Origin: a virus
Virus record (IMG/VR): IMGVR_UViG_3300032214_000321
Location: 1 to 36,355 of that record
Length of the DNA stretch: 36,355 nucleotides
Direction: 5' to 3' (one strand)
Part shown: in pieces, positions 2,117 to 17,688 of the stretch
Layout of the letters: each line of letters opens with the position of its first letter
Position numbering within the stretch: the first letter of the stretch is position 1
Position numbers and translations under genes: made by a program
Notes under the pieces: generated by a model
Databases searched by the model: none
Told to the model about the DNA's origin: nothing
What the model saw: the letters and a program-made list of their open reading frames with translations, nothing else

Positions 2117-2487
2117 TAGACAGACACAGCCGCAAGGCACAATTAGGCTCAATAAATCCAGGCAAAAGACTGCCAAATAAGCTCGCACCGGCGTTGTTAG
2201 AGTGCCCTTAAAGCTGGATCTCGGATCGCAGTCAACGGAATTCCCTAATTGGTAGAGGGGTTGTAACAGTAGTATCCTTAACAGGACCACGATCGGATAT
2301 GCCTATAGAACCGGTTTACTGTACAAGAAAGTGTTAATCAAGGCTAAAAGAGGATGAAGAATCCACGGCTGTAAGTATGTTAGCGTATATTTGCAGACCC
2401 GCCGTCGTATTAAGACGCAGCTAAAGGTACCGGACGACCGCCTTAGTAATGCTGTAACGCTAAGTGACCATTGTGCAACTCAGATAA

Positions 2488-2628
2488 TGTTCATTTTTAG
2501 CCCGCAAGGGCTAAGTGTGACTGAACAATCTAGATAATATTTAAACTGCTTCGCAGTTATATTCTACTGTTAAAAGAAAAGAAATTCGTTGAGCGTTAAG
2601 CGAAAACGAATATGAGCTTTAGCTCATA
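2488..2628. other. Cluster of four consecutive hairpins
   Basis: There are four inverted repeats in 141 bases. (1) TGTTCA (2488-2493) pairs with TGAACA (2522-2527) and encloses TAGCCC-GCAA-GGGCTA (2498-2513), a perfect stem with a GNRA loop. (2) AACTGC-TTC-GCAGTT at 2544-2558. (3) ATTCGTT (2584-2590) with AACGAAT (2605-2611). (4) TATGAGC-TTTA-GCTCATA at 2611-2628. None is followed by a T-run on either strand, so they are not simple intrinsic terminators. The last ends six bases before a late promoter octamer. Roles as RNA processing sites, protein-binding palindromes or part of a structured RNA are all possible. Confidence 0.6.
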
Positions 2629-2633
2629 GCTGT

Positions 2634-2641
2634 AATAAATA
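2634..2641 (+). promoter_or_regulatory. T4-like late promoter octamer
   Basis: AATAAATA differs from the T4 late consensus TATAAATA by one base. It lies 22 bases before the ATG of the 486-residue protein gene and just after the hairpin cluster. A start of transcription about six bases downstream would give a leader of about 15 bases. Confidence 0.6.
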
Positions 2642-2663: not shown

Positions 2664-4124
2664 ATGAGAATAGCAACATTAATGGAATATCACGTTCTTG
2701 AAAGTCGTAGAATACTTCGAGAAAGCTGTGATGGGTTAACTACTGAGCAACAAATAATTGTAGAAGGAATCTACAATGATCTAATGCCTTTGGTTGAAGC
2801 TAGTCTTGCACCTCAACAGATACAGCAGCTATTTGGTGAGATTGAAAAGGCTGCAACAGCTGGTGGTGACAACAGAACTGGGCTAGGACTTGGTGTGGAT
2901 GTTGCCAAAGAAGCCAACAATGCAATTAATAAATTTGGTACTTGGTTACAGAATACAACTCCTGTACAGGCATTTGATCAAAAGTTTGAACAGCTCAAAG
3001 GTAAAGTATCAACAAAGTTTCCTAAACTTGCTCAACAACTTTCAAGCATTGGTGAGTGGGCAAAAGAAAATCCAGGAAAGACCGCAGCTATTATTGGACT
3101 ATTAACTACACTTGCTTCTATGGCAGGCGGACCAGTTGGCGGTGCTATTGCTGGTCAAGTTTTAAAAGGTGCCGCAGAATTGTTGAAAGGCGAAAAACTT
3201 TCAACAGCAGTAGGCAAAGGTGTTAAAGCAGCGGCATTTGGTTGGTTAACAGGCAAGGCCGTTGAGTTTATTGGTAATGCTCTAGCTGATCCTGTTATTG
3301 CACAGGCCAATGACATTGGTAAAGATATTGTTAGAGCCAATTATAGAGCTACTATTGATGAAATAGGCGGTGAATTTGGCGACAGATTTGGATCATTTGC
3401 TACTGGAGAATTATATGGTCGTTCAGCAGATGTAGCAGACATTAGAGATCTTTGGAAAGATGCCGTTGGCGCTTGGAAAGCTGGGGACTATCGACAAGCT
3501 CAGCTGGGATTTGAAGCTGTAGAAAATTTGACTGATAAACTTGCAAATATAGATTATCTTAATAGTATTGCCAACGACATAGATAAAGCACAACTAATGA
3601 AATCCGGTGCAGAAGAAATGAAAAACTTCTTTGGCAAAATGGCAGATGTTGCACAGGGCGCGGCCACAGCGGCCACGGGAAATTCTAAAAATAAAAAAGA
3701 AAGTGTTTATCGTCAAACTCGTCCACTAAGTGAAGGGCAAGTCTACGTTCTATTCAATCGTATTGAACAACTCAACGAAGGTCCATCTGACTGGCTTAAG
3801 AAAGCTGGAGACTGGGTAGGCAAGAAAGCCACTAATCTAACAACAAAAATTACTGCTGACAAATTAAATTCAGCCTGGGAAAAGGCAGGATCGCCAACTG
3901 ACAGTGCTGAACTTGAAAAGTTTTTAGCAGCTCAGGGTATTAGCGATCAAGTAATTAAACAAACTTTTCAATCAATGAAAATTGACACAGGTGCTGCTCC
4001 TGCTGAAGATCCAAAGAAAGCCGCAACCTTGTATGCTCAAGTTAAAACTGATTTACAAGGACTAGACAAGAAGAGCCAAAAGCAACTTATGGCCTACCTA
4101 CAAAAACAATTAGGAACTGCATAA
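2664..4124 (+). CDS. Putative internal head/structural protein with glycine-rich hydrophobic core and gp21-type sites
   Basis: This 486-residue protein is not assigned to a named T4 gene. The N-terminal 60 residues are helical. Residues about 137-215 form a Gly/Ala-rich hydrophobic stretch (AAIIGLLTTLASMAGGPVGG and onward) that could insert in or coat a membrane. Near the C-terminus are two sequences matching the T4 prohead protease rule (L/I)-x-E|: LSE|G (after E357) and LNE|GP (after E372). The last about 110 residues repeat the layout of the next two gene products: an xEGP site, a variable linker, then YAQVK...LDKK...LQK. It is the first gene of a late operon, one base from the next gene. 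I recall similar proteins in marine T4-like phages (unverified). An internal or ejected head protein is an inference. Confidence 0.7.
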   Translation: MRIATLMEYHVLESRRILRESCDGLTTEQQIIVEGIYNDLMPLVEASLAPQQIQQLFGEIEKAATAGGDNRTGLGLGVDVAKEANNAINKFGTWLQNTTPVQAFDQKFEQLKGKVSTKFPKLAQQLSSIGEWAKENPGKTAAIIGLLTTLASMAGGPVGGAIAGQVLKGAAELLKGEKLSTAVGKGVKAAAFGWLTGKAVEFIGNALADPVIAQANDIGKDIVRANYRATIDEIGGEFGDRFGSFATGELYGRSADVADIRDLWKDAVGAWKAGDYRQAQLGFEAVENLTDKLANIDYLNSIANDIDKAQLMKSGAEEMKNFFGKMADVAQGAATAATGNSKNKKESVYRQTRPLSEGQVYVLFNRIEQLNEGPSDWLKKAGDWVGKKATNLTTKITADKLNSAWEKAGSPTDSAELEKFLAAQGISDQVIKQTFQSMKIDTGAAPAEDPKKAATLYAQVKTDLQGLDKKSQKQLMAYLQKQLGTA

Positions 4125-4125
4125 A

Positions 4126-5256
4126 ATGAGAATCAATGAACTATTAACAGAATCACAACAACCTGAGCAGCTAGACGAAGGTCCATTTGGACAAGCAGTT
4201 GGCAAAGCTGTAGGCGGACTAGCCAAAGGTGTCGGTGCAGTCGCTGGAGGCGTAGTAGGAATGGGGCGTGCTCTTAAGAAAGGCTATCAAAGTGGTAAAG
4301 CCACAGTAGCAGGAGATCCTGATCCAAATGCTCCTTTATCAAAACAATATGCCGCTCCTGATGCAGAAGAACCTGCGGCAGCACCAGCTGCAAAACCAGC
4401 AGCAGGAGCAGCAGAACCAGTAGGTGGCCCAACTGCACAGCCAGCAGCAGGCGATGTGAATAAAGCAGGCCCAGCAGGTACAGCAGCCGCCAAACCTTTA
4501 CAAGGTGCTGCCAAAGTTGCCGCGGACAAAACAGCCGCAGCTACCGCAGGACAAGATCAATCAGCAGCAGGGCAGACAATGTATGCTCAAGTTAAAGCTA
4601 ACATTGACAAGCTAGACAAGAAAGGTAAGCAACGAATTTTACAGTTGTTACAGAAGTCAATGGCAGCACCAGCAGCAGGAGGAGCACCAGCAGGCGGAAA
4701 ACCAGCAGCACCAGCAGCACCAGCAGCAGGTGGAGCACCAGCAGCAGAACCTCAAGCAGCACCAGCAGCAGGTGGAGCACCTGAAAAAGTTGCAGCTCCT
4801 GGGGAAGAACCAGCAGGTGCTGGAGCAGGAGCAATGGGATCTATGGCTAATCAATTAGGCGGCAAGCCTGCTAACACAATGGCTAATGCTCCTGTTAGTA
4901 AAACAAATAAAGCCAAGCCTGGTAATCCAAATGCAGCACCAGCAGCTGAACCTCAAGCAGCACCAGCAGCAGAACCTCAAACAGCACCAGCAGCTGAACC
5001 AACACCGGCAGGTCAACCTGCTCCAAAACGTACAGGTGGTAAAGTTAAAGGGCAAGTAAGTATGACTCCTAATGCTGTACGTAAGCGTGAAAAACGTCTT
5101 GGCAAGCAGCAACCGCAAGGTCAAAGCCAGGCTGAATTAGATGCAGATCGTGAACGTATGATGGGCAACTTTACCGACTCAGTTGAGCGTTATAAGCAGC
5201 GTATGGTTGCCGAAGCGTTTTCTAGAGGCGAAATAAGTTTGTTTAGAAAAAAATGA
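4126..5256 (+). CDS. Ala/Pro-rich putative internal head protein with targeting-like N-terminus
   Basis: This 376-residue protein is dominated by Ala-Pro-Gly-Glu low complexity (about residues 80-330), interrupted by YAQVKANIDKLDKKGKQ (about residues 150-166), which is close to the end of the preceding protein. The N-terminus MRINELLTES...LDE|GPFG contains an LDE|G site after E18. It resembles, in length and character, the short capsid-targeting peptides of T4 internal proteins, which are removed by gp21. The C-terminus is basic (RKREKRLGKQQPQGQ), suiting contact with packaged DNA. The start follows the previous stop by one base, and the stop overlaps the next start (ATGA). The coding function is clear from frame length and operon context; internal head protein is an inference from motifs. 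Confidence 0.72.
   Translation: MRINELLTESQQPEQLDEGPFGQAVGKAVGGLAKGVGAVAGGVVGMGRALKKGYQSGKATVAGDPDPNAPLSKQYAAPDAEEPAAAPAAKPAAGAAEPVGGPTAQPAAGDVNKAGPAGTAAAKPLQGAAKVAADKTAAATAGQDQSAAGQTMYAQVKANIDKLDKKGKQRILQLLQKSMAAPAAGGAPAGGKPAAPAAPAAGGAPAAEPQAAPAAGGAPEKVAAPGEEPAGAGAGAMGSMANQLGGKPANTMANAPVSKTNKAKPGNPNAAPAAEPQAAPAAEPQTAPAAEPTPAGQPAPKRTGGKVKGQVSMTPNAVRKREKRLGKQQPQGQSQAELDADRERMMGNFTDSVERYKQRMVAEAFSRGEISLFRKK
4662..4780 (+). repeat. GCA/CCA-type short repeat tract coding Ala-Pro
   Basis: The tract is built from iterations of GCACCAGCAGCA and near variants inside the Ala/Pro-rich gene, with a second patch at about 4935-5005 and an earlier one at 4369-4450. Unit length is a multiple of three, so slippage would change protein length without a frameshift. 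Confidence 0.6.
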
Positions 5257-5537
5257 GATTCAACGAACTTATTTCAGAAGGTCCAATTGATTCTATTAGA
5301 CAAAATTGGAACAAAGGTGCTGATGCGGTAGACAAAGCATTTACACCAAGTAGGTGGGGGAAAGATTCTCCACCTACTTCATCTTCACAGAAAAAAACTG
5401 CTGTTTCTCCAGTAAAGATTGACGTGCATAATAAACAAGAAGTGATTACAATTTTAAATGCAGTTGATCAAGAAAAAATTTCACCATCACAACAACAACT
5501 GTTAGATATGTTAAAAAATCAAATATCTAAAATTTAA
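5253..5537 (+). CDS. Small putative processed head protein, third member of the cluster
   Basis: This 94-residue protein begins MRFNELISE|GPIDSI, with an ISE|G site after E9 in the same place and style as the LDE|GP and LNE|GP sites of the two genes upstream. The C-terminal helix (EVITILNAVDQEKIS...QQLLDMLKNQI) looks like a diverged copy of the YAQVK/LDKK segment. The start overlaps the previous stop (ATGA). The stop codon overlaps the stop of the convergent gp51-like gene: TAA at 5535-5537 on this strand, TAA at 5536-5534 on the other. Function unknown; the shared features suggest the same pathway as its neighbours. Confidence 0.65.
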   Translation: MRFNELISEGPIDSIRQNWNKGADAVDKAFTPSRWGKDSPPTSSSQKKTAVSPVKIDVHNKQEVITILNAVDQEKISPSQQQLLDMLKNQISKI

Positions 5538-6616: not shown

Positions 6617-6624
6617 AATAAATA
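6617..6624 (+). promoter_or_regulatory. Late promoter octamer for the tape-measure-like gene
   Basis: AATAAATA on the + strand, 58 bases before the ATG at 6683, inside the 5' region of gp26. The expected start point is near 6630, so its initial transcript faces that of the minus-strand promoter at 6650-6657. Confidence 0.5.
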
Positions 6625-6649: not shown

Positions 6650-6657
6650 TATTTATA
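6650..6657 (-). promoter_or_regulatory. Perfect late promoter octamer for gp26-gp51
   Basis: The - strand reads TATAAATA, the exact T4 late consensus. The expected start is near 6644, giving a leader of about 40 bases to the GTG at 6603 with GGAGAT at 6616-6611. Confidence 0.7.
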
Positions 6658-6682: not shown

Positions 6683-9600
6683 ATGGCTGAAAAAGTAGAA
6701 ATTGATATTCCGGGTATAGGTTTAATAGAAGCCAAAAATGCCGCCACGGAAACTACCCTGCTGGAAATACTTGATGTTCTAAAAGGCACCCAAAAAGACA
6801 ATAATAAAAATGCCAAAGATCAAAAAAACAATGCTGGTAAAGGAGCTCCACCACCGCCAGGAGGTGGAGGTGGAGGCTTAGAGCAATTTAATTTACAGGC
6901 CAAAGGAGCCAGCAAAGGACTTAATTTATTAACAAATGCCGGTAAGGTTGCTGGCGTAGGAATGAATGTACTGGGCCGTGGTGCAGGTATGGCCGCAGGC
7001 GGTATAGGTAAGATGGCAGGCGGTGCAGTGATGGCAGCTGGTGCAGCATTTACCCTAGGCAAGGTAGCTATGAGTGCCGCAGAAGGTATGACCAATTTAA
7101 TCCAGGAAATGGCTAATGTTGGTGACAGTACGCAAAATGCAGCAGCCACAATGAGACACATTCCTGTAGTTGGCGGATTACTAGCAGGAGTGTTTGGAGC
7201 TGTAGCAGCAGCATCTGAGAATGTTGTAGCTGCTTATCAAAAGTCAGCTAGCATAGGTGCAACATTTGGAGGTAGTGTACAAGAGATGAGTCGTGCGGCC
7301 GGCGGCGCCGGTATGACTTTAGATAAGTTTGCAGGACTCATTGCAGCCAACGGTGAAAGTTTGATGTTCTTAGGAGGCACAACTGAAGCTGGCGCTAAAC
7401 AATTTGCAAATCTTGCCAAAGATATTCAAAGCAGTGGAGTTGGTTCAGAGCTACAAAGATTAGGTTATACCACTGAACAGATTAATGGCGGTATGGCCAA
7501 GTACATTAATATTATAGGTAGAACTGGTGCTCTGCAAGGAATGAGCACACAACAGATTGTAGCCAGTTCAGGCGCTTACTTAAAAGAATTAGATGCGTTG
7601 GCAAAAATTACTGGTGTAAGCAGAGAACAAAAAGAACAAGAACAAGCAGCATTAATGTCTGATGCTAAAGTTCGTGCAGCTATGGCAGGATTAGATGCTG
7701 ATCAGCAAAAACAAATGATGGCCTACATCACTAGTTTTCCTAAAGAGCAGCAGGCAGCTATTGCTGATATGATTGCCACAGGTAATACTACAACTGAAGA
7801 AGCTATTCAACTACAAAGTATGCTACCAGGTGTAGCTCAACGTACTATGGAATTTGGTCGTACTCTTCAGGCCGGCGGAAAAATTAATCAAGATGCGCTT
7901 AATCAGGCAAAAAATAGTGCTATTCTTGAAGCTCAAGAAAGTGTGAAGCGTAACAAAGCCAGAGGACTCTACGACGAACAAGCCGGTAAAACTTTCGTTG
8001 GTATGGCTAATCTTGCTTCACAAAAAGTAGATGGATATAGTCAGGCTATTGGTGAACAGGCTAATGCTACGAAAAACGCAAATCTTGCAGAAAATTTAAC
8101 CAAAGCTAAACAACGGCTTGCAGAATTCTCAAACAATTTTCAAATGGCATTGGCTAATAGTGGAGCACTAGATGGACTAATGACAGTTTTTAGTTCGTTG
8201 GCTAATTTGTTAATGTCAACTGTTGTTCCGGTGTTCACAAATTATATTGTACCTATTATTGTAAATGCAGTAGTTCCTGCACTACAAGCGGTGTTTGCTA
8301 TAGCAACTAAAATAGCCTCTGGACTTGGAACATTATTGATGCCAGCGATTGATGCTGTGTCCGCAGCACTTGGTCCTGGTAGCGGACTTGGTGGTACAGT
8401 ACAGTTTATTGATGGAATATTAAACGCTGTATTTCCTCCATTGGCTGCAATTGTTCGTGGAACCGTTATGATCTTTGAAGGACTAATGGAAGGCATTGGC
8501 TTCTTAATAGGTCCAATTAATCGATTGTTTGATTCTTTTAGTTTCTTAGAAGGCGGCACCGACACATTAACCACAATAATTCTTACAGCCGCTGATTATC
8601 TTGGAACAGCTTTTAAAGCTCTTGGCTTCTTGTTAGGTGGAGTAATAGACGTTACAGCTAGTGTTGTCAGATGGTTTGGCGATATAGTCAGCAAAAGCGA
8701 ACTAGTTACTGGTGCATTTAAATTTATAGGTACTGCTGTAGATATGTTAAGAACATATTTTAGTCCCGAAGGATTTAAAGCAATATATGCCAGTATAAAA
8801 GAATTTTTTACAAATGGAATCAAAGATTTTATTGGATCTTTTAAAGATGCTGCTCTAAGTATGTTTTCAGGGTTGCTACAGTTAATTGGCAAGATTCCGG
8901 GTCTTGGAAAATTAGCCGATGCTGGTAAAGAAATGGAAAAAGAAATCGAAGACCGTAAAAAAGCTCGAGAAGATGCAGCCAAAGAAAGAAAAACTGAAAT
9001 AACTCAACTGCATCAAGCTGCTGCCAATGCTAAAACTGAAAGAGACAGAAGAATAGTACAACAGGCGGCCGCTGTTAAACAAGATACAAGATCATTTACT
9101 GAAAGACAGATACATCTAGAGAAGGTAGGAGGCCTTAACAAACAAGAAGAAGACGCAAGGCAAAAGAAACTTGAAGCTGAAAAAGGCCCAACCGTTGATA
9201 TGAGTAATCCTATTCAAATGTTGAAAACTTTCTCTGCGCAACAAAAATCAGCATTTACTCAAGAAGCCAAAGCTCTAGACGATAAAGAAAAAGCTCGAAG
9301 TGAAATGAAAATGGCCAGCGACGAATATTCAAAAGCTATGGATGCACGTAACAAGGCTATGGCGTCGGGTTCAGCCGAAGAAAAGAAAGCTGCTGAAGCT
9401 AGACTTGCAGAAGCTGAAAAGAGACAAAAGGCTGCACAAGAAAGACAAAGCAAAACTCAGGAAGCAGTAGACGAAGCTAAAAAACGAATGGAACTGGCCA
9501 AGGCTGGAAAAGATCCAGGTCCTACTAAAGTTGCAGAAGGCAAGCCAGCAGAAGCAGGCAAGCCAGCAGAAGCAGGCAAGCCAGCAACATCTGAAACTGC

Positions 9601-11245
9601 AAGAGCTCAAGGAACTGTACCAGCTATCAATCAAGATGTACAAAAGAATTTAGAATTAGTCAAAGCTGCACTACAAAAACAAGGACTAAACGATCCTAAG
9701 TACATTGCTGCCACATTAGGCAATGTTATGAAAGAAACTGGTGGTAAGAGTATTAGCGAAAATATGGACTACTCTAAGACCAGTAATGAAAGAATTAAGA
9801 AAATATTTGGATCAAGAGCTGCTGGAAAAACAGATCAAGAATTAGATGCTATCAAGAAAGATCCTAAACAGATGGGCGAAATGATGTATGGATCCAATAC
9901 CAAGATGGGTCAGCAAATGGGCAATACCGAACCTGGCGATGGTTGGAAATATCGAGGTAGAGGATTTATTCAGCTTACAGGTAAATCAAATTATGCCGCA
10001 GCATCCAAGGCTATCTACGGAGACAATCGTCTAGTAGACAATCCAGATTTGGTAAATGATCCTGCTGTGGCCGCCGAAGTTAGTGCCTGGTATATGAAGA
10101 AAGGGCAGGCTAGAATGGCTAGTGGATTAGGTATTGATACTAAGAATATGACGCAAGATCAGGCAAACCTGTTAGCTACCAGTCAAATTGCCGGTGGTGA
10201 CATTCGTAAGAAAGGAGCAATTGGTCAAGAAATTTCTGGAAAGGTAGATAAGTTTGCCAGCTCTGGACAGATTCAGGCCATTGCCGGCGCACCCGGAGGC
10301 CCAGCAACAGCAACAGCAACACCTACTCCGCCAGTAACAGGAGCAACTGCTGCTGATGCATCTAGAGCTCGTACCGATGCCGCAGCCAACGATCCAAGAA
10401 GAACCGATAGACCTACAACTGAAACAACACGGCCAACAGCTACTACTCCTGCCACTACTCCTGCAACCGCTGCTGCAACTACTCCTGCCGCAGGCGAAGT
10501 TCAGGCTCCTCAGTTTGCAATGCAGACCTTGATCAAAGACGGTATAATGCCTACGACTATTGCTTTCCAAGATCTAGTCAAGAAAGGTATCATGCCTATG
10601 CTAACTGGAACACAGGTTAAGGCTTTAGAAGATTCTAAAAAAGGTGCTATTAAACCTGAAGACAGTCTAAGTAAAGGTGAAGAACTTGTAAAAAATCTGC
10701 CTAACGTTGCAAAAACAATGGCAGACCAACTTAAGACTACTGGTACATTAACTAGCGACGATGCAATAAAAGCTGCACTTGAAAAGAATAAATCAAGGGG
10801 AATGTATGACGCAGATGCTGCTAAATCTTATGTAGGCATAGCAGAAGAAGTTAAATCTAGTATTGGAAAAGCTATTAATCCCGAGACAGGTGAATTATAT
10901 ACACCAGTTGATCTTAAATCTCAAATGGCTGAACCTAAGATGAGAGGAACCTATGACAATCTAGCTGCTGCTGAAACTCCAAAATTAGAAATGATAGCCC
11001 AAAAAGAAAAAGAGGCTATGGAAAAAATAGAATTAGAGCGTCAACAAGCAGCAAACAGAGAACAACTTAGAAAAGAAGAAATAATGGCTATGAATGGTCC
11101 TGCGGGTCAAAACAACCCAGGAGGTGAAGCAATTGACTTAAATACAGCATTACGTGAATTAATTGCTATTAATAAGAGAACTGCTGAGCTGAACGAAAAA
11201 CAATTAAGCGTACAAAGCGGTCTAAGCGGCGACCTATTTGCCTAA
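6683..11245 (+). CDS. Tape-measure-like tail protein with embedded GH19 domain
   Basis: This 1520-residue protein has a P4-G6 linker (about residues 55-64), then long Gly/Ala-rich hydrophobic helices (about 75-185) and membrane-like stretches (about 505-720, e.g. LMSTVVPVFTNYIVPIIVNA). These and the charged coiled coils (about 750-960) are typical of tape-measure proteins. Residues about 985-1195 form a glycoside hydrolase 19 domain: candidate acid E1018 in MKETGGK, E1026 in SENMDYS, and the hallmark GWKYRGRGFIQLTGKSNY (about 1087-1104). GH19 enzymes cleave chitin or peptidoglycan; here local wall digestion during DNA entry is likely. A Pro/Thr/Ala linker follows, then a C-terminal helical region repeating an RGLYD-type motif. 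Start ATG with GGGAAA. It could instead be a hub or internal structural protein; a gp29 equivalent is not proven. Confidence 0.75.
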   Translation: MAEKVEIDIPGIGLIEAKNAATETTLLEILDVLKGTQKDNNKNAKDQKNNAGKGAPPPPGGGGGGLEQFNLQAKGASKGLNLLTNAGKVAGVGMNVLGRGAGMAAGGIGKMAGGAVMAAGAAFTLGKVAMSAAEGMTNLIQEMANVGDSTQNAAATMRHIPVVGGLLAGVFGAVAAASENVVAAYQKSASIGATFGGSVQEMSRAAGGAGMTLDKFAGLIAANGESLMFLGGTTEAGAKQFANLAKDIQSSGVGSELQRLGYTTEQINGGMAKYINIIGRTGALQGMSTQQIVASSGAYLKELDALAKITGVSREQKEQEQAALMSDAKVRAAMAGLDADQQKQMMAYITSFPKEQQAAIADMIATGNTTTEEAIQLQSMLPGVAQRTMEFGRTLQAGGKINQDALNQAKNSAILEAQESVKRNKARGLYDEQAGKTFVGMANLASQKVDGYSQAIGEQANATKNANLAENLTKAKQRLAEFSNNFQMALANSGALDGLMTVFSSLANLLMSTVVPVFTNYIVPIIVNAVVPALQAVFAIATKIASGLGTLLMPAIDAVSAALGPGSGLGGTVQFIDGILNAVFPPLAAIVRGTVMIFEGLMEGIGFLIGPINRLFDSFSFLEGGTDTLTTIILTAADYLGTAFKALGFLLGGVIDVTASVVRWFGDIVSKSELVTGAFKFIGTAVDMLRTYFSPEGFKAIYASIKEFFTNGIKDFIGSFKDAALSMFSGLLQLIGKIPGLGKLADAGKEMEKEIEDRKKAREDAAKERKTEITQLHQAAANAKTERDRRIVQQAAAVKQDTRSFTERQIHLEKVGGLNKQEEDARQKKLEAEKGPTVDMSNPIQMLKTFSAQQKSAFTQEAKALDDKEKARSEMKMASDEYSKAMDARNKAMASGSAEEKKAAEARLAEAEKRQKAAQERQSKTQEAVDEAKKRMELAKAGKDPGPTKVAEGKPAEAGKPAEAGKPATSETARAQGTVPAINQDVQKNLELVKAALQKQGLNDPKYIAATLGNVMKETGGKSISENMDYSKTSNERIKKIFGSRAAGKTDQELDAIKKDPKQMGEMMYGSNTKMGQQMGNTEPGDGWKYRGRGFIQLTGKSNYAAASKAIYGDNRLVDNPDLVNDPAVAAEVSAWYMKKGQARMASGLGIDTKNMTQDQANLLATSQIAGGDIRKKGAIGQEISGKVDKFASSGQIQAIAGAPGGPATATATPTPPVTGATAADASRARTDAAANDPRRTDRPTTETTRPTATTPATTPATAAATTPAAGEVQAPQFAMQTLIKDGIMPTTIAFQDLVKKGIMPMLTGTQVKALEDSKKGAIKPEDSLSKGEELVKNLPNVAKTMADQLKTTGTLTSDDAIKAALEKNKSRGMYDADAAKSYVGIAEEVKSSIGKAINPETGELYTPVDLKSQMAEPKMRGTYDNLAAAETPKLEMIAQKEKEAMEKIELERQQAANREQLRKEEIMAMNGPAGQNNPGGEAIDLNTALRELIAINKRTAELNEKQLSVQSGLSGDLFA

Positions 11246-12961: not shown

Positions 12962-12969
12962 GATAAATA
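12962..12969 (+). promoter_or_regulatory. Late promoter octamer directly before a start codon
   Basis: GATAAATA ends four bases before the ATG at 12974. With the T4 geometry (start about six bases past the octamer) the transcript would begin at or inside the start codon, so it would be leaderless for that gene. It would still serve the genes downstream. Confidence 0.5.
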
Positions 12970-12973
12970 CAAG

Positions 12974-13231
12974 ATGCTGCTAAAAGAATTTTTTTATTTT
13001 AACGATAAAACCAACGATTTTTCGTCAGATCTTCGCTACGATTCTAGCAAAGACAAATCAGTACTTGAAAAAGATGATACACGAAAGATTCGTTTAACTC
13101 TACGCCAGATTAATTCTTTACGTCATCAAACTGAAGCACACGAGTTTGAAAAAGAAAGCGAATTAGAGTTTATCAAACAAATGTATGGAGCACCAGCAGG
13201 TGAAGCAGCAGCAGAACAACCGGCAGCATAA
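12974..13231 (+). CDS. Small conserved-looking protein between gp20 and gp67-like
   Basis: This 85-residue protein begins MLLKEFFYFNDKTNDF, followed by a polar segment and a basic helix (DDTRKIRLTLRQINSLRHQ) and an Ala/Glu/Pro tail. In T4 the genes between 20 and 21 are 67 and 68, both core components. This gene lies in that interval but shows no clear likeness to gp68. I recall similar proteins starting MLLKEFF at this position in cyanophages (unverified). There is no Shine-Dalgarno before the ATG; a late octamer abuts it. The next gene overlaps its 3' end. A role in prohead assembly is inferred from position only. Confidence 0.75.
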   Translation: MLLKEFFYFNDKTNDFSSDLRYDSSKDKSVLEKDDTRKIRLTLRQINSLRHQTEAHEFEKESELEFIKQMYGAPAGEAAAEQPAA

Positions 13232-13844
13232 CATAGCCTTTGTACTAGGCAACGGTACAAGCAGATCAAAATTAAATCTAAATTCAATTAAAGATATTGG
13301 AGTTATCTATGGCTGCAATGCTCTTTATAGAGAATTTGAGCCCGACTATCTAATAGCTGTTGATACTAAAATGATCAACGAAATTATAGCATCTGGCTAT
13401 CATAAAGATCATCAAGTTTGGACAAACCCTAATAAAGGTATTACCAGCAAAAGTAATGTAAACTTCTTTAGTCCGCATAAAGGTTGGAGCTCAGGACCTA
13501 CTGCACTTTGGATGGCTAGCCAGCAAAGCTACAACGAAATTTACATATTCGGCTTTGACTATCAGGGTCTAGAGGGTAAGTTTAACAACGTCTACGCAGA
13601 TACTTTTAACTACAAGAAAAGTCAAGATGCTGCAACTTTCTTTGGCAATTGGTTAAGCCAAACTGAAAAAACTATTAAAGAATATAAAAATATTCAATTC
13701 TTTAGAGTTATGAAACAGGGTGCGTTTGTCCCAGACAAACTTCAAGGCATACCTAATCTTCAACATATTACTTTTGAACAATTTGAACAAAAGTTCAAGG
13801 GTAGTACTTATACTACCGAAAACCTTCAAAAAAGTACCATTTAA
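13200..13844 (+). CDS. Rossmann-like protein resembling GT42 / DUF115 (MptE-like) enzymes
   Basis: The start is uncertain. GTG at 13200 has GGAG (13187-13190) nine bases upstream and gives 214 residues; ATG at 13185 gives 219 residues but lacks a ribosome site. Numbering here is from the ATG. A nucleotide-binding-like loop FVLGNGTS (19-26) is followed by GVIYGCNALYR (39-49), H98 and SSGPTALWMA (102-111), then EIYIFGFD (118-125). This order resembles GT42 sialyltransferases (GNGPSL ... His ... SG ... EIYLSGIDFY) and the DUF115/MptE-like fold. The phage loop has T-S where those families usually have P-S. It overlaps the 85-residue gene and sits inside the head operon. I recall relatives at this site in cyanophages. 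Whether it is an active glycosyltransferase is unknown. Confidence 0.7.
   Translation: MKQQQNNRQHNIAFVLGNGTSRSKLNLNSIKDIGVIYGCNALYREFEPDYLIAVDTKMINEIIASGYHKDHQVWTNPNKGITSKSNVNFFSPHKGWSSGPTALWMASQQSYNEIYIFGFDYQGLEGKFNNVYADTFNYKKSQDAATFFGNWLSQTEKTIKEYKNIQFFRVMKQGAFVPDKLQGIPNLQHITFEQFEQKFKGSTYTTENLQKSTI
13800..13817 (+). other. Perfect 7-bp hairpin inside the end of the GT42-like gene
   Basis: GGTAGTA-CTTA-TACTACC. A T7 run follows only about 34 bases later, so it is not a standard intrinsic terminator. It could be an RNA-processing or stability element between the gp20 and gp67-like messages. Confidence 0.35.
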
Positions 13845-13905: not shown

Positions 13906-14727
13906 ATGGCAGACAAGAATATTCTTGAGCAAATGCTTGGTCATTTGGTCAATGAGGACAAACAAAAAGCAGAAGAACTATTTCACGAGTACGTGGTAGC
14001 TAAATCACGTGAAATCTACGAAAGCCTAATCGAAGCCGAAATGGACGACGAAGAGGAAGAAGAAGTAGAAGAAGCTTCTGAAGAAGACAAAGACGAAGAA
14101 GAAAAAGTCGAAGAAGAATTTGAAGACATTGCCTACGAAGGCGATGACGAAATGGGCGATATGGGTGGAGACCCGACTGATGACCTAGAAGGTGAAATGG
14201 GTCCAGAAGAAGGTGATGATGAAATGGCTGACAAAGAGCCAGCTGAATTGCTACAAGACCTAGACGCTATTGTGGATGAACTACAGGCTAAGTTTGACGC
14301 TATGAACGGCGGCGACGAAATGGGCGGCGGCGAAGGTGACGACGAAATGAAAGATGATTTCGATCTAGAAACAGTTCGCGAATATGTAGAAAAAGTTCCA
14401 GCAGGTCACGGCGCAGAAAAGAAAGGCGCAGGCGAAAAAGCTGATGGCACAAAAAGCGTAATCGACAATATGAAGAATGATATGGGCGGCACAACTGCTA
14501 ATATTCTAAGCGGTCGTAATGGATCTGAAGGTTCAACTTCAGGTGCTCTTAAAGGTAATGGTTTGTTGAAAGGTGGTCCAAAAGAGGACAACGCAGGTAA
14601 CATCAATGTTCCAGGCGCTAAGGCAGGCGGTGCTTTCAGCACAAAAGAGCCAGGTCACGGTGCAGAGAAGAAAGGTTCCGGCGAAAGTGCTGACAACAAG
14701 CAAAGTCTTTTCCGTGGTCGTAGATAA
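13906..14727 (+). CDS. 67: Prohead core protein, gp67-like
   Basis: This is a 273-residue, very acidic protein. The N-terminal helix (QKAEELFHEYVVAKSREIYE) leads to SLIE|AEMDDEEEEE. The same arrangement occurs in T4 gp67: a helix, then LIE followed by an acidic tail. LIE|A (after E43) fits the gp21 cleavage rule. T4 gp67 is only 80 residues; this version adds a long region with two copies of a GHGAEKKG(A/S)GE(K/S)AD motif (residues 167-180 and 250-263) and a basic end (FRGRR). It is likely a core component beside gp22, digested during maturation. It directly precedes gp21, as gp67-gp68-gp21 in T4. Strong ribosome site and own late octamer suggest high expression. Confidence 0.75.
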   Translation: MADKNILEQMLGHLVNEDKQKAEELFHEYVVAKSREIYESLIEAEMDDEEEEEVEEASEEDKDEEEKVEEEFEDIAYEGDDEMGDMGGDPTDDLEGEMGPEEGDDEMADKEPAELLQDLDAIVDELQAKFDAMNGGDEMGGGEGDDEMKDDFDLETVREYVEKVPAGHGAEKKGAGEKADGTKSVIDNMKNDMGGTTANILSGRNGSEGSTSGALKGNGLLKGGPKEDNAGNINVPGAKAGGAFSTKEPGHGAEKKGSGESADNKQSLFRGRR

Positions 14728-14740
14728 TAGGGCGATATAG

Positions 14741-15370
14741 GTGAAAACTACTCTAGCTGAACATTTGAGTTTTGACCAGGCACAGATTGTCTTGGAAAGC
14801 GAAGAAGGAGTCAACGGCGGAAAGTCGTTGTACTTAAACGGGATTTGCATTCAGGGTGATATCCGCAATGCAAATCAACGTGTTTATTCTTCTCAAGAGA
14901 TTGGCAAGGCTGTCAAAACGCTTAACGAGCAGATCTCTGGCGGATACTCAGTGCTAGGTGAAGTTGATCATCCTGATGATTTAAAAATTAACCTAGACCG
15001 TGTAAGTCACATGATAACAAAAATGTGGATGGACGGTCCAAACGGCTACGGAAAACTAAAAATACTTCCGACTCCAATGGGGAATCTAGTACAGACCATG
15101 TTGCAGTCGGGAGTCAAGTTAGGAGTTTCAAGCAGGGGGTCTGGCGAAGTTGATTCGCAAGGAAGAGTCCAAGGTTTTGAAATTATTACAGTGGACGTTG
15201 TTGCGCAGCCAAGCGCCCCGGGAGCTTATCCTACACCAGTTTACGAACATCTGATGAATAATCAAGGTGGATATCAGGCATTTAAAATAGCACAAGAAGT
15301 TAAAGGCGACCCAAAGGCACAGAAATACATAGCAGAGAGTCTGGTGAAAATCATCAGAGGTCTCAAATAA
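14741..15370 (+). CDS. 21: Prohead core protease gp21
   Basis: This 209-residue serine protease of the T4 gp21 (S78/U9-like) fold is activated in the completed prohead and cleaves core and shell proteins at (L/I)-x-E. Key segments are GEVDHPDDLKINLDRVSH with candidate catalytic H77, MWMDGPNGYGKLKILPTPMG (95-114), and VKLGVSSRGSG with candidate nucleophile S130 or S131. FEIITVDVVAQPSAPGA includes D152, a possible third member. The start is GTG at 14741, eight bases after AGGG (14729-14732). The C-terminal helix is probably removed by self-cleavage, as in T4. It lies 13 bases after gp67-like and 15 before gp22. Confidence 0.95.
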   Translation: MKTTLAEHLSFDQAQIVLESEEGVNGGKSLYLNGICIQGDIRNANQRVYSSQEIGKAVKTLNEQISGGYSVLGEVDHPDDLKINLDRVSHMITKMWMDGPNGYGKLKILPTPMGNLVQTMLQSGVKLGVSSRGSGEVDSQGRVQGFEIITVDVVAQPSAPGAYPTPVYEHLMNNQGGYQAFKIAQEVKGDPKAQKYIAESLVKIIRGLK

Positions 15371-15385
15371 CAGTAGGAGAATCAC

Positions 15386-16480
15386 ATGCTAGATTTCGTT
15401 AAAAAATTGTTTGAAGACAATGTGATTTCCGAAGAACTTAAATCGGAAATTGAGTCTGCCTGGCAGGGCAGAATCGAAGAAAACCGTGAACAAGTCACTG
15501 CACAGTTACGTGAAGAGTTTGCTCAGAAATATGAGCACGACAAGTCCGCATTGGTAGAAGCTGTTGAAAGTATGCTAGCTGATCGCTTACAAGCAGAGCT
15601 AGGTGAACTCGCAGAAGATCGCCAAGGTCTTATTGAAGCAAGAGCTCGTTATGTAGAAAAAATGTCACAAGATTCCGCTACAATGGAATCTTTTGTTATG
15701 AATAATCTACGTAAAGAAATTGCTGAACTACACGAAGACCGTCAGAAAGTTGCCGCAAATGTTGCACAGCTTGAATCCTTTATTGTGGATGCACTAGCAA
15801 AAGAAATTGCAGAATTCCACAGTGACAAGAAAGATCTAGCCGAAACTAAAGTTAAATTAGTTCGCGAAAGCAAGGCCAAGTTCGAACAAGTTAAGAAAGA
15901 ATTCATTGCACGTTCAAGTCAGATCATTGAAGAAACAGTCTCCAAAGGATTAAAGTCTGAAATGAATCAACTACGTGAAGACATCGAAGCAGCTCGCAAA
16001 AATGACTTTGGTCGCAGGATCTTTGAAAGTTTTGCTAGCGAATTTGCAGCGAGCCATCTCAATGAGAAATCAGAGACAGCTAAACTTCTAAAGGTTGTTC
16101 AACAGAAACATGCCGAACTAGAAGAAGCAGCAAAGATTGTAGCAGATACACAAAAATTAGTTGAAAGTCGTGAAGCAGAATTACGTATTGCAAAAGATAC
16201 AATGGCTCGCAAAGAAGTTATGAGCGAATTGCTAAACCCATTGTCTGGAGACAAGAAAGTAGTTATGCGTGAACTGTTAGAATCAGTTCAAACAGACAAA
16301 CTAAGAAATGCTTATGACAAGTATCTACCTTCAGTAATGAACGGTGGAAGTACTCCGGTCAAAAAAGCGTTGACAGAAGGCAAAGAAATTACAGGCGATA
16401 AACAGGCACCAAATGTCAGTGGTGAAGAAAAAACCGCTGAGATATTTGACATCCGCAGGCTTGCGGGACTAAAAGTTTAA
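15386..16480 (+). CDS. 22: Prohead scaffold core protein gp22
   Basis: This 364-residue, almost wholly helical, charged protein fits the major scaffold of the T4 prohead core. It opens MLDFVKKLFEDNVISEELKS, typical for marine gp22. Two similar helices, ESFVMNNLRKEIAEL and ESFIVDALAKEIAEF, form an internal repeat, and FGRRIFESFASEFAASHLN precedes the C-terminal domain (KLRNAYDKYLPSVMNGG). Candidate gp21 sites include LIE|A near residue 82. It is longer than T4 gp22 (269 residues). Ribosome site AGGAGA. It is placed between protease and capsid as in T4, eleven bases before gp23. Confidence 0.93.
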   Translation: MLDFVKKLFEDNVISEELKSEIESAWQGRIEENREQVTAQLREEFAQKYEHDKSALVEAVESMLADRLQAELGELAEDRQGLIEARARYVEKMSQDSATMESFVMNNLRKEIAELHEDRQKVAANVAQLESFIVDALAKEIAEFHSDKKDLAETKVKLVRESKAKFEQVKKEFIARSSQIIEETVSKGLKSEMNQLREDIEAARKNDFGRRIFESFASEFAASHLNEKSETAKLLKVVQQKHAELEEAAKIVADTQKLVESREAELRIAKDTMARKEVMSELLNPLSGDKKVVMRELLESVQTDKLRNAYDKYLPSVMNGGSTPVKKALTEGKEITGDKQAPNVSGEEKTAEIFDIRRLAGLKV

Positions 16481-16491
16481 GGAGAACTACA

Positions 16492-17688
16492 ATGTCACAA
16501 TTACTCGAGTCACGCTGGTCGGAAACCAAAGAGGCCCTATTAGAAGGTCTACAAGGTAATAAGCGTTCAGTAATGGCAACTACTCTAGAGAATACCCGCA
16601 AGTATCTCGCAGAAAGTGCTACTGCTGGTGCTACTTCCGCTGGCAACGTTGCAACACTTAACCGTGTTATTCTACCCGTCATCAGACGTGTAATGCCAAC
16701 CGTTATCGCTAACGAGTTGGTTGGTGTCCAGCCTATGACTGGCCCAGTTGGTCAAATTCATACTCTACGTGTTCGTTATGCTGACACGTTCACTTCATCT
16801 GCAGGTAGCAATGATGGTGCCCCATACGGTACTGACACAGCTCCTGGTGACGAAGCATTGAGCCCATTCAAGATTGCTCAAGGTTATTCTGGTTCTGCTA
16901 CAACTGACAAGGCAGCTTCTACAGCAGCTTTAGAAGGTGTTGCTGGTAACAGAATGAGCATTCAAATCTTGAAGCAGACAGTTGAAGCTAAGACACGTAA
17001 GTTGTCAGCTCGCTGGACATTTGAAGCTGCACAAGATGCACAAGCCCAACAAGGTATTGACATCGAAGCAGAAATTATGGCTGCTTTGGCTCAAGAAATT
17101 ACAGCTGAAATCGACCAAGAAGTTATTAACTCTCTAAACAGCCTAGCTGGTACAGTATTAACATACGACCAGGCTGCTGTTTCTGGTACTGCTACATTCG
17201 TTGGTGACGAACACGCTGCTCTAGCTGTTCAAATCAACCGTGCTGCTAACTTGATCGCTCAGCGTACACGTCGTGGTGCTGGTAACTACGCCGTTGTTAG
17301 CCCAACAACATTAACACTTCTACAAAGTGCTACAACTTCTGCATTCGCAAGAACAACAGAAGGTACATTCGAAGCACCTACAAACACTAAGTTTGTTGGT
17401 ACATTGAACAGCGCAATGAAAGTGTATGTAAACGGTTATGCAACATCTGATGATGTTCTAATTGGTTACAAAGGTTCAAGCGAAAGTGATGCTCCAGCAT
17501 TCTACTGCCCATACATTCCATTGATGAGCAGCGGTGTTGTTCTAGATCCATCAACTTTTGAACCAGTCGTATCATTCATGACACGTTATGGTTATGTTGA
17601 GTTGACAAACACAGCTTCTTCTCTAGGTAATGCAGCTGACTACCTAGCTAAAGTTGCTGTAACAACAGCTAACCTAAAGTTTGCTTAA
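16492..17688 (+). CDS. 23: Major capsid protein gp23
   Basis: This 398-residue protein forms the hexamers of the head. The diagnostic segments are VIRRVMPTVIANELVGVQPM with TGPVGQIHTLRVRYA, AEIMAALAQEITAEIDQEVI, and a C-terminal PEVV-like wall (STFEPVVSFMTRYGYVEL). A good gp21 site is KYLAE|SATAG after E41, which would give a mature protein of about 357 residues. T4 gp23 has 521 residues and is cut after 65, so both propeptide and body are shorter here. No gp24 vertex paralogue follows. Strong site AAGGAGA, codons free of rare-looking clusters, and an intrinsic terminator immediately downstream fit very high late expression. Confidence 0.97.
   Translation: MSQLLESRWSETKEALLEGLQGNKRSVMATTLENTRKYLAESATAGATSAGNVATLNRVILPVIRRVMPTVIANELVGVQPMTGPVGQIHTLRVRYADTFTSSAGSNDGAPYGTDTAPGDEALSPFKIAQGYSGSATTDKAASTAALEGVAGNRMSIQILKQTVEAKTRKLSARWTFEAAQDAQAQQGIDIEAEIMAALAQEITAEIDQEVINSLNSLAGTVLTYDQAAVSGTATFVGDEHAALAVQINRAANLIAQRTRRGAGNYAVVSPTTLTLLQSATTSAFARTTEGTFEAPTNTKFVGTLNSAMKVYVNGYATSDDVLIGYKGSSESDAPAFYCPYIPLMSSGVVLDPSTFEPVVSFMTRYGYVELTNTASSLGNAADYLAKVAVTTANLKFA

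Follow-up and report, generated by a model that had tools for sequence, protein, structure and literature searches.

The P1, P2 and P3 genes and their E↓GP motif

The window analysed here is the whole of the 36,355-bp linear IMG/VR virus record IMGVR_UViG_3300032214_000321, from an uncultured lake virus whose gene content is T4-like. Three consecutive genes, here called P1, P2 and P3 (Table 1), encode candidate internal head proteins for processing by a gp21-type prohead protease. Each contains an [LI]xE↓GP motif (the arrow marks the proposed cut), as an earlier note on this DNA had pointed out: LNE↓GPSDW at E372 of P1, LDE↓GPFG at E18 of P2 and ISE↓GPID at E9 of P3. In P1 the motif stands at residue 372 of 486 and is therefore far from the N-terminus, which refines the earlier description.

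In the window and 12 related contigs (13 records), the motif [LIVM]xEGP was found 18 times in the 8,921 amino acids (aa) encoded by the P1, P2 and P3 families and 10 times in the 496,999 aa of all other genes, corresponding to 2.0 versus 0.02 per 1000 aa, an enrichment of about 100-fold. After shuffling of composition, the chance of at least one such motif was 0.014 for P1, 0.035 for P2 and 0.0014 for P3. That the likeness arises from chance or composition, the three open reading frames (ORFs) being unrelated to head processing, would be conceivable for so short a motif, but is very improbable in view of this enrichment, the invariance of the sites across many phages and the permutation and T4 controls reported below.

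P2 carries the clearest arrangement: a capsid-targeting-like tag, two sites, a glycine-rich stretch directly after E↓GP and an Ala/Pro-rich basic remainder, with a pI of 9.9 for the mature protein. Among 29 sequences few columns are invariant; these include M1, E9, E18, G19 and P20, while the rest of the protein, unlike its two Glu, is largely of low complexity and variable. In a wider set EGP was kept in 46 of the 56 sequences counted, the other ten including several with DEG, DEL or SEA.

P1 consists of an N-terminal region (with E20 and E45), a Gly/Ala-rich hydrophobic stretch (about residues 137-206), a middle domain, a linker (with E357 and E372), a C-terminal helical domain and a C-terminal module. 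Glu is present at E45 in 59/59 relatives and at E20 in 53/59, where the mean top-residue fraction is 0.52. In the automatic alignment E372 was kept in 39/47 and E357 in 42/56 sequences; an improved alignment of the C-terminal part gave Glu at E357 in 35/35, the site reading LSE↓G in close-branch members and VxE↓S in those of the distant branch, and LTE↓AG instead of LNE↓GP at the E372 site of several close-clade members. The N-terminus of P1 does not match the strict tag pattern described below and resembles it only loosely. The piece downstream of the proposed linker cut is basic (pI 9.3) and ends in a module common to P1 and P2 (hhalign E 3.2e-6 over 34 columns), which lies downstream of the proposed cuts and would thus remain in the mature proteins. 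AlphaFold models reached only modest confidence (pLDDT 66 for full P1, 62 for its C-terminus), and no match at E <= 0.001 came from Foldseek searches of PDB and BFVD with the P1 models. The best VIA-align match, to a death domain (Z 4.0), is not interpretable for a small helical bundle, and a Pfam match of P1 to Herpes_UL6 (E 0.054) was discarded as under its cut-off. A 157-aa ORF in locus L057, considered as a P1 C-terminal part encoded by a separate gene, was set aside as this locus may be interrupted.

P3 is composed of the tag MRFNELISE↓GP followed by a short basic protein (pI 9.4) and is the only fast-varying member of the three. Its three nearest relatives begin with MRFKEISLNP or MRIKELSLNP and have no cleavable Glu.

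An N-terminal tag shared with T4 head proteins

When the P2 and P3 profiles were compared, only residues 1-10 aligned (MRINELLTES and MRFNELISEG). This recalls the T-even internal proteins, for which the targeting sequence has been reported as the sole part in common (PMC3012670). A tag pattern, ^M[KR]x(2,5)[LIVFM][LIVFM]xE[AGSN], matched 24 of the 1631 genes in the 13 records, P2 and P3 among them. In 300 column permutations the number of matches averaged 2.2 and never exceeded 7, and of 7667 internal methionines 1 matched. The T4 genome served as an independent control: among 250 ORFs the pattern matched two, IPII and IPIII. As T4 IPI and Alt were missed, the pattern is specific but not exhaustive. 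In addition, T4 gp24, a known gp21 substrate (PMC9026906), begins with MAKINELLRE↓S.

The resemblance of the N-termini to T4 capsid-targeting peptides, proposed earlier for P2 and P3, is well supported for P2, with its tag match and invariant E9 and E18. It is weaker for P3, whose nearest relatives retain the tag without the cleavable Glu. Published work on T4 found that the N-terminal part of the tag chiefly determines targeting, whereas residues 8 and 10 matter for processing (PMC9026906); a P3 that is targeted yet uncut would accordingly be possible.

Tag-like starts were also observed on other genes of related contigs. A LysM + GH19 lysin-like protein (L149:13179-14195, +) begins with MRASEFITE↓NFADGK, and a 68-aa basic protein beside a P1 homologue (L009:8819-9025, +) with MRAHEFITE↓NFADGK; judged by these starts, the two are possibly a head-packaged lysin and a basic internal protein. 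The tag is further present on a DUF6321 protein and on two conserved families without assigned function, one of 370 aa (L127:8446-9558, -; L139:5014-6126, -) and one of about 165 aa (L128:4416-4922, -; L139:19413-19901, -). Together with the LysM + GH19 protein, these may be regarded as candidates for head-packaged proteins.

Protease, companion head genes and gene neighbourhood

The window encodes a gp21-type protease, which was present in 12/15 related contigs and has sites at its own N- and C-terminus, the IAE↓S near the C-terminus being found in 18/18 sequences. The LAE↓S site noted earlier in gp23 is well founded, as LAE41↓S is a site in 8/8 homologues. The LIE↓A attributed to the gp67-like protein does occur, at LIE43↓A of the acidic head-core candidate, but is kept as a site in only 7/18 sequences. 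The sites in gp23, gp21 and the scaffold show that an [LIV]xE-type site occurs in the expected substrates of this clade.

Table 1. Positions in the window of P1-P3, their candidate sites and the associated head genes, promoter and RNA features.
Feature	Position	Strand	Remarks
Polynucleobacter-1 RNA	2180..2326	+	Rfam RF01718; 76.8 bits, E 1.9e-16
Second structured RNA domain	about 2340..2625	+	covarying; no Rfam match; directly before late promoter
T4-type late promoter box	2634..2641	+	AATAAATA; 30 nt before P1 start codon
P1	2664..4124	+	486 aa
P1 E20	2721..2723	+	candidate site LRE↓S
P1 E45	2796..2798	+	candidate site LVE↓A
P1 E357	3732..3734	+	candidate site LSE↓G
P1 E372	3777..3779	+	candidate site LNE↓GP; first site of the earlier note
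Common module, P1 copy	4017..4118	+	residues 452-485
P2	4126..5256	+	376 aa
P2 tag	4126..4152	+	MRINELLTE↓S
P2 E18	4177..4179	+	site LDE↓GP; second site of the earlier note
Common module, P2 copy	4567..4668	+	residues 148-181
P3	5253..5537	+	94 aa
P3 tag	5253..5279	+	E9 is the third site of the earlier note; unconserved in nearest relatives
Acidic head-core candidate	13906..14727	+	gp67/gp68 position; LIE43↓A
Prohead protease, gp21 type	14741..15370	+	PF03420, Peptidase_S77, 85 bits; own sites VLE19↓S, IAE199↓S
Scaffold protein	15386..16480	+	gp22 position; nine candidate sites
Major capsid protein gp23	16492..17688	+	PF07068; LAE41↓S

The order of genes is a gp46-like gene, a SegE-type GIY-YIG endonuclease (PF19835), P1, P2, P3, a gp26-like baseplate hub gene on the minus strand and the tape measure gene, followed by the portal, a small protein, the acidic head-core candidate, the protease, the scaffold and gp23. 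The 1520-aa tape measure protein (6683-11245, +) matches GH19 (chitinase class I) internally, over residues 1085-1148, and a 219-aa ORF inside the head-gene block (13185-13844, +), which overlaps the gene at 12974, has a match to phrog_30607 and a weak one to a sialyltransferase family. At the DNA level, similarity to cultured phages was confined to about 165 bp within gp23 (under the 'near' setting).

This neighbourhood leads to an alternative in which P1-P3 are components or assembly factors of the tail/baseplate side, the MRINEL helix docks on another structural partner and E↓GP is a helix-ending turn spread by duplication. The three genes do adjoin the baseplate hub and tape measure genes, P1 and P2 have a module in common, and in cultured phages a tblastn search with P1 returned only weak tape measure matches (E about 0.1) to its hydrophobic stretch. 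We nevertheless regard this explanation as unlikely: the two P2 Glu are invariant amid a variable, low-complexity remainder, the tag matches those of T4 IPII/IPIII and the gp24 prodomain, gp21, gp22 and gp23 of the clade have such sites too, and a separate tape measure gene is present.

Late expression and an upstream structured RNA

A T4-type late promoter box precedes P1, and ATAAATA was found at -90..+40 of P1 in 80/87 loci, compared with 2.2% of random windows. The AATAAATA box and the ATAAATA near P1 are signs of late expression at the sequence level. P1, P2 and P3 abut or overlap, making a single late transcript likely. The exact TATAAATA box alone showed no enrichment in the window, and the late-promoter argument depends on placement. 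Other T4-type late boxes are located at 6617-6624 (+, tape measure gene), 12963-12969 (+, gene at 12974) and 6650-6657 (-, baseplate hub).

The 547-bp noncoding gap before P1 (2117-2663), which shows 93-96% identity in close relatives, harbours two structured RNA domains. The first is Polynucleobacter-1, which Weinberg et al. 2010 (PMC2864571) list, from Burkholderiales and fresh water/estuary, in an entry that gives no function; a literature search on the RNA name as a phrase found no paper. The second domain was found in 99/124 loci, with double-sided changes in 26 of its 29 predicted pairs and a covariation score of 0.588, compared with 0.194 for shuffles and at most 0.10 for slid controls. 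It lies directly upstream of P1 in 81/87 loci and directly upstream of P2 in the seven examined loci lacking P1. No match to the structured RNA was obtained in the cultured-phage collection. An extended proposal would treat this RNA (about 450-550 nt) and the tagged operon as one functional unit, the RNA being kept even where P1 is lost and acting in head assembly (e.g., packaged or scaffold-binding) or regulating the tagged proteins, with P1 as a polyprotein whose cleavage gives two mature head proteins; we consider this combination rather doubtful.

Distribution of the cluster and searches for a function

Related loci were assembled from 44 viral-contig loci recovered via P1 homologues and 80 more via the baseplate gene, of which 61 were testable, having the baseplate gene followed by 5 kb or more of further sequence. 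P1 was present in 52 of these, P2 in 53 and P3 in 27, and at least one of the three in all 61, indicating that the cluster is a core feature of the clade. When the P1 alignment was run against bacterial and archaeal genomes, only two contigs were returned, both in a Neomarinimicrobiota metagenome-assembled genome (MAG) bin from the Red Sea. These contigs (L212, PBPT01000016.1, 335 kb; L213, PBPT01000082.1, 153 kb) carry a P1 homologue within a phage gene order like that of the window, and hence look like (jumbo-)phage contigs in a bacterial bin.

Sequence searches of Pfam, PHROGs, NCBIfam and PADLOC with P1-P3 revealed no function (for P3 no PHROG or Pfam match was significant), nor did a comparison of the P1 profile with PDB. 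In the cultured-phage collection tblastn found no homologue with P1 and P3 as queries, P2 not being among the queries. As a single sequence P3 found nothing among viral contigs; its family surfaced only through profile iteration in neighbouring loci.

These results also bear on the suggestion that P1-P3 are packaged in the head and injected as anti-defence or host-takeover factors, like T4 IPI*, IPIII or Alt; the earlier note had pointed to anti-defence. The tagged T4 proteins include the anti-restriction protein IPI, and IPIII, which is required on one E. coli strain (PMC9391042, PMC3012670), and mature P2 and P3, like the C-terminal piece of P1, are basic. However, no Pfam, PHROG, NCBIfam, PDB or fold match was found, and P1 and P2 are near-universal with invariant residues, unlike accessory anti-defence genes. 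PADLOC contains defence proteins, and the lack of a match there therefore says little on anti-defence. On balance the suggestion is without support, and an anti-defence role appears improbable. The near-universal presence of the genes and their invariant residues speak for a core function in the head or in ejection, and P1-P3 are likely to be head components with a structural or ejection role, not accessory anti-defence factors.

Comparison with known systems

The closest parallel is provided by the T4 internal proteins IPI, IPII and IPIII, which likewise begin with a tag of 9-10 residues in which two hydrophobic residues, x and E are spaced in the same way (MKTYQEFIAE↓A compared with MRFNELISE↓G), a small basic mature part and a T4-like late context, just as the similarity between P2 and P3 is confined to the tag. 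In contrast, no homology extends beyond the tag as far as was found, P2 possesses an additional invariant site, and P1 is far larger and has internal sites. The T4 internal proteins are patchily distributed and accessory, whereas P1-P3 are near-universal in their clade. A functional analogy with the T4 capsid-targeted internal proteins is thus supported for P1-P3 at the level of sequence features, most strongly for P2; sequence homologues they were not found to be. The prodomain of the T4 vertex protein gp24 is nearly identical to the P2 tag, although P2 matches no capsid family.

Redundant processing sites have been described for the internal head and ejection proteins of phiKZ and SPN3US, which have several xE↓ sites, including redundant ones in propeptides (PMC9026906, PMC10052503). 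The SPN3US protease, however, cuts after AxE with Ser preferred at P1' (PMC10052503), and no sequence similarity to P1-P3 was found in these phages. T4 Alt is cut by gp21 at both ends (PMC9026906), as P1 is proposed to be processed at more than one place, but P1 shows neither an ADP-ribosyltransferase domain nor any other signature of an enzyme. Klebsiella phage RaK2, which by gp23 ranks with the closest cultured phages and is one of those with DNA similarity to the window in that gene, shares the order gp47-gp46 ... gp26(-)-tape measure-gp20-gp21-gp22 position-gp23; its gp46-gp26 slot contains a hypothetical gene and gp49 instead of P1-P3, and within the part of RaK2 that was scanned no P1-P3-like tagged gene was detected in this slot.

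A proposed role for P1-P3 in the phage head

Taken together, we propose, with a probability of roughly 0.7, that P1-P2-P3 constitute a late operon in a T4-like phage, encoding internal head proteins that are targeted to the prohead, processed by gp21 and carried in the particle. For P2 the combination of a T4-like capsid-targeting peptide and gp21 sites has good support; for P1 it is supported by the invariance of the sites, and for P3 it is weaker. The late promoter and the linked gp21 gene fit head proteins. Several observations weigh against this proposal. The operon lies between gp46 and the baseplate hub gene, outside the head-gene block, and no virion proteomics was found for this clade. 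The motif [LIV]xE[AGS] is short and is also found within the portal and other proteins, so that single sites may be decoys, and the sites of P1 and P2 may not be independent as these proteins have a module in common. The tag pattern was written after P2 and P3 had been seen, and most of its 24 matches are P2/P3 homologues, roughly nine being otherwise. Finally, some distant P2 members have no E↓GP, and relatives of P3 keep the start MR/KIxE/D but have lost the cleavable Glu.

According to the proposed internal-head role, the nine-residue tag of P2 and P3 (MRINELLTE, MRFNELISE) would work like a T4 capsid-targeting sequence, docking the protein in the scaffold core during prohead assembly. Cleavage after [LI]xE by the gp21-type protease would follow, setting the mature, basic proteins free inside the head alongside the DNA, with LDE↓GP of P2 acting as a second, back-up site. 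P1 would probably be trimmed at E20 and/or E45 and again in the linker at E357 and/or E372, yielding a large hydrophobic central piece and, apart from it, a basic C-terminal one. Insertion into a membrane during ejection is conceivable. The sequences themselves show the sites and their conservation, the common tag and C-terminal module, the late promoter, the linked protease and the synteny, whereas packaging of the proteins, their cleavage and release, and ejection are inferred; the peptides expected from the named sites offer concrete targets for proteomics.

If this proposal is correct, the T4 logic of capsid targeting and gp21 cleavage would reach a large uncultured T4-like clade and new protein families, and the tag would provide a sequence rule to pick head-packaged proteins without assigned function from metagenomes. 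The natural tags, several of which have a built-in back-up cleavage site, may also represent possible loaders of proteins into phage heads.

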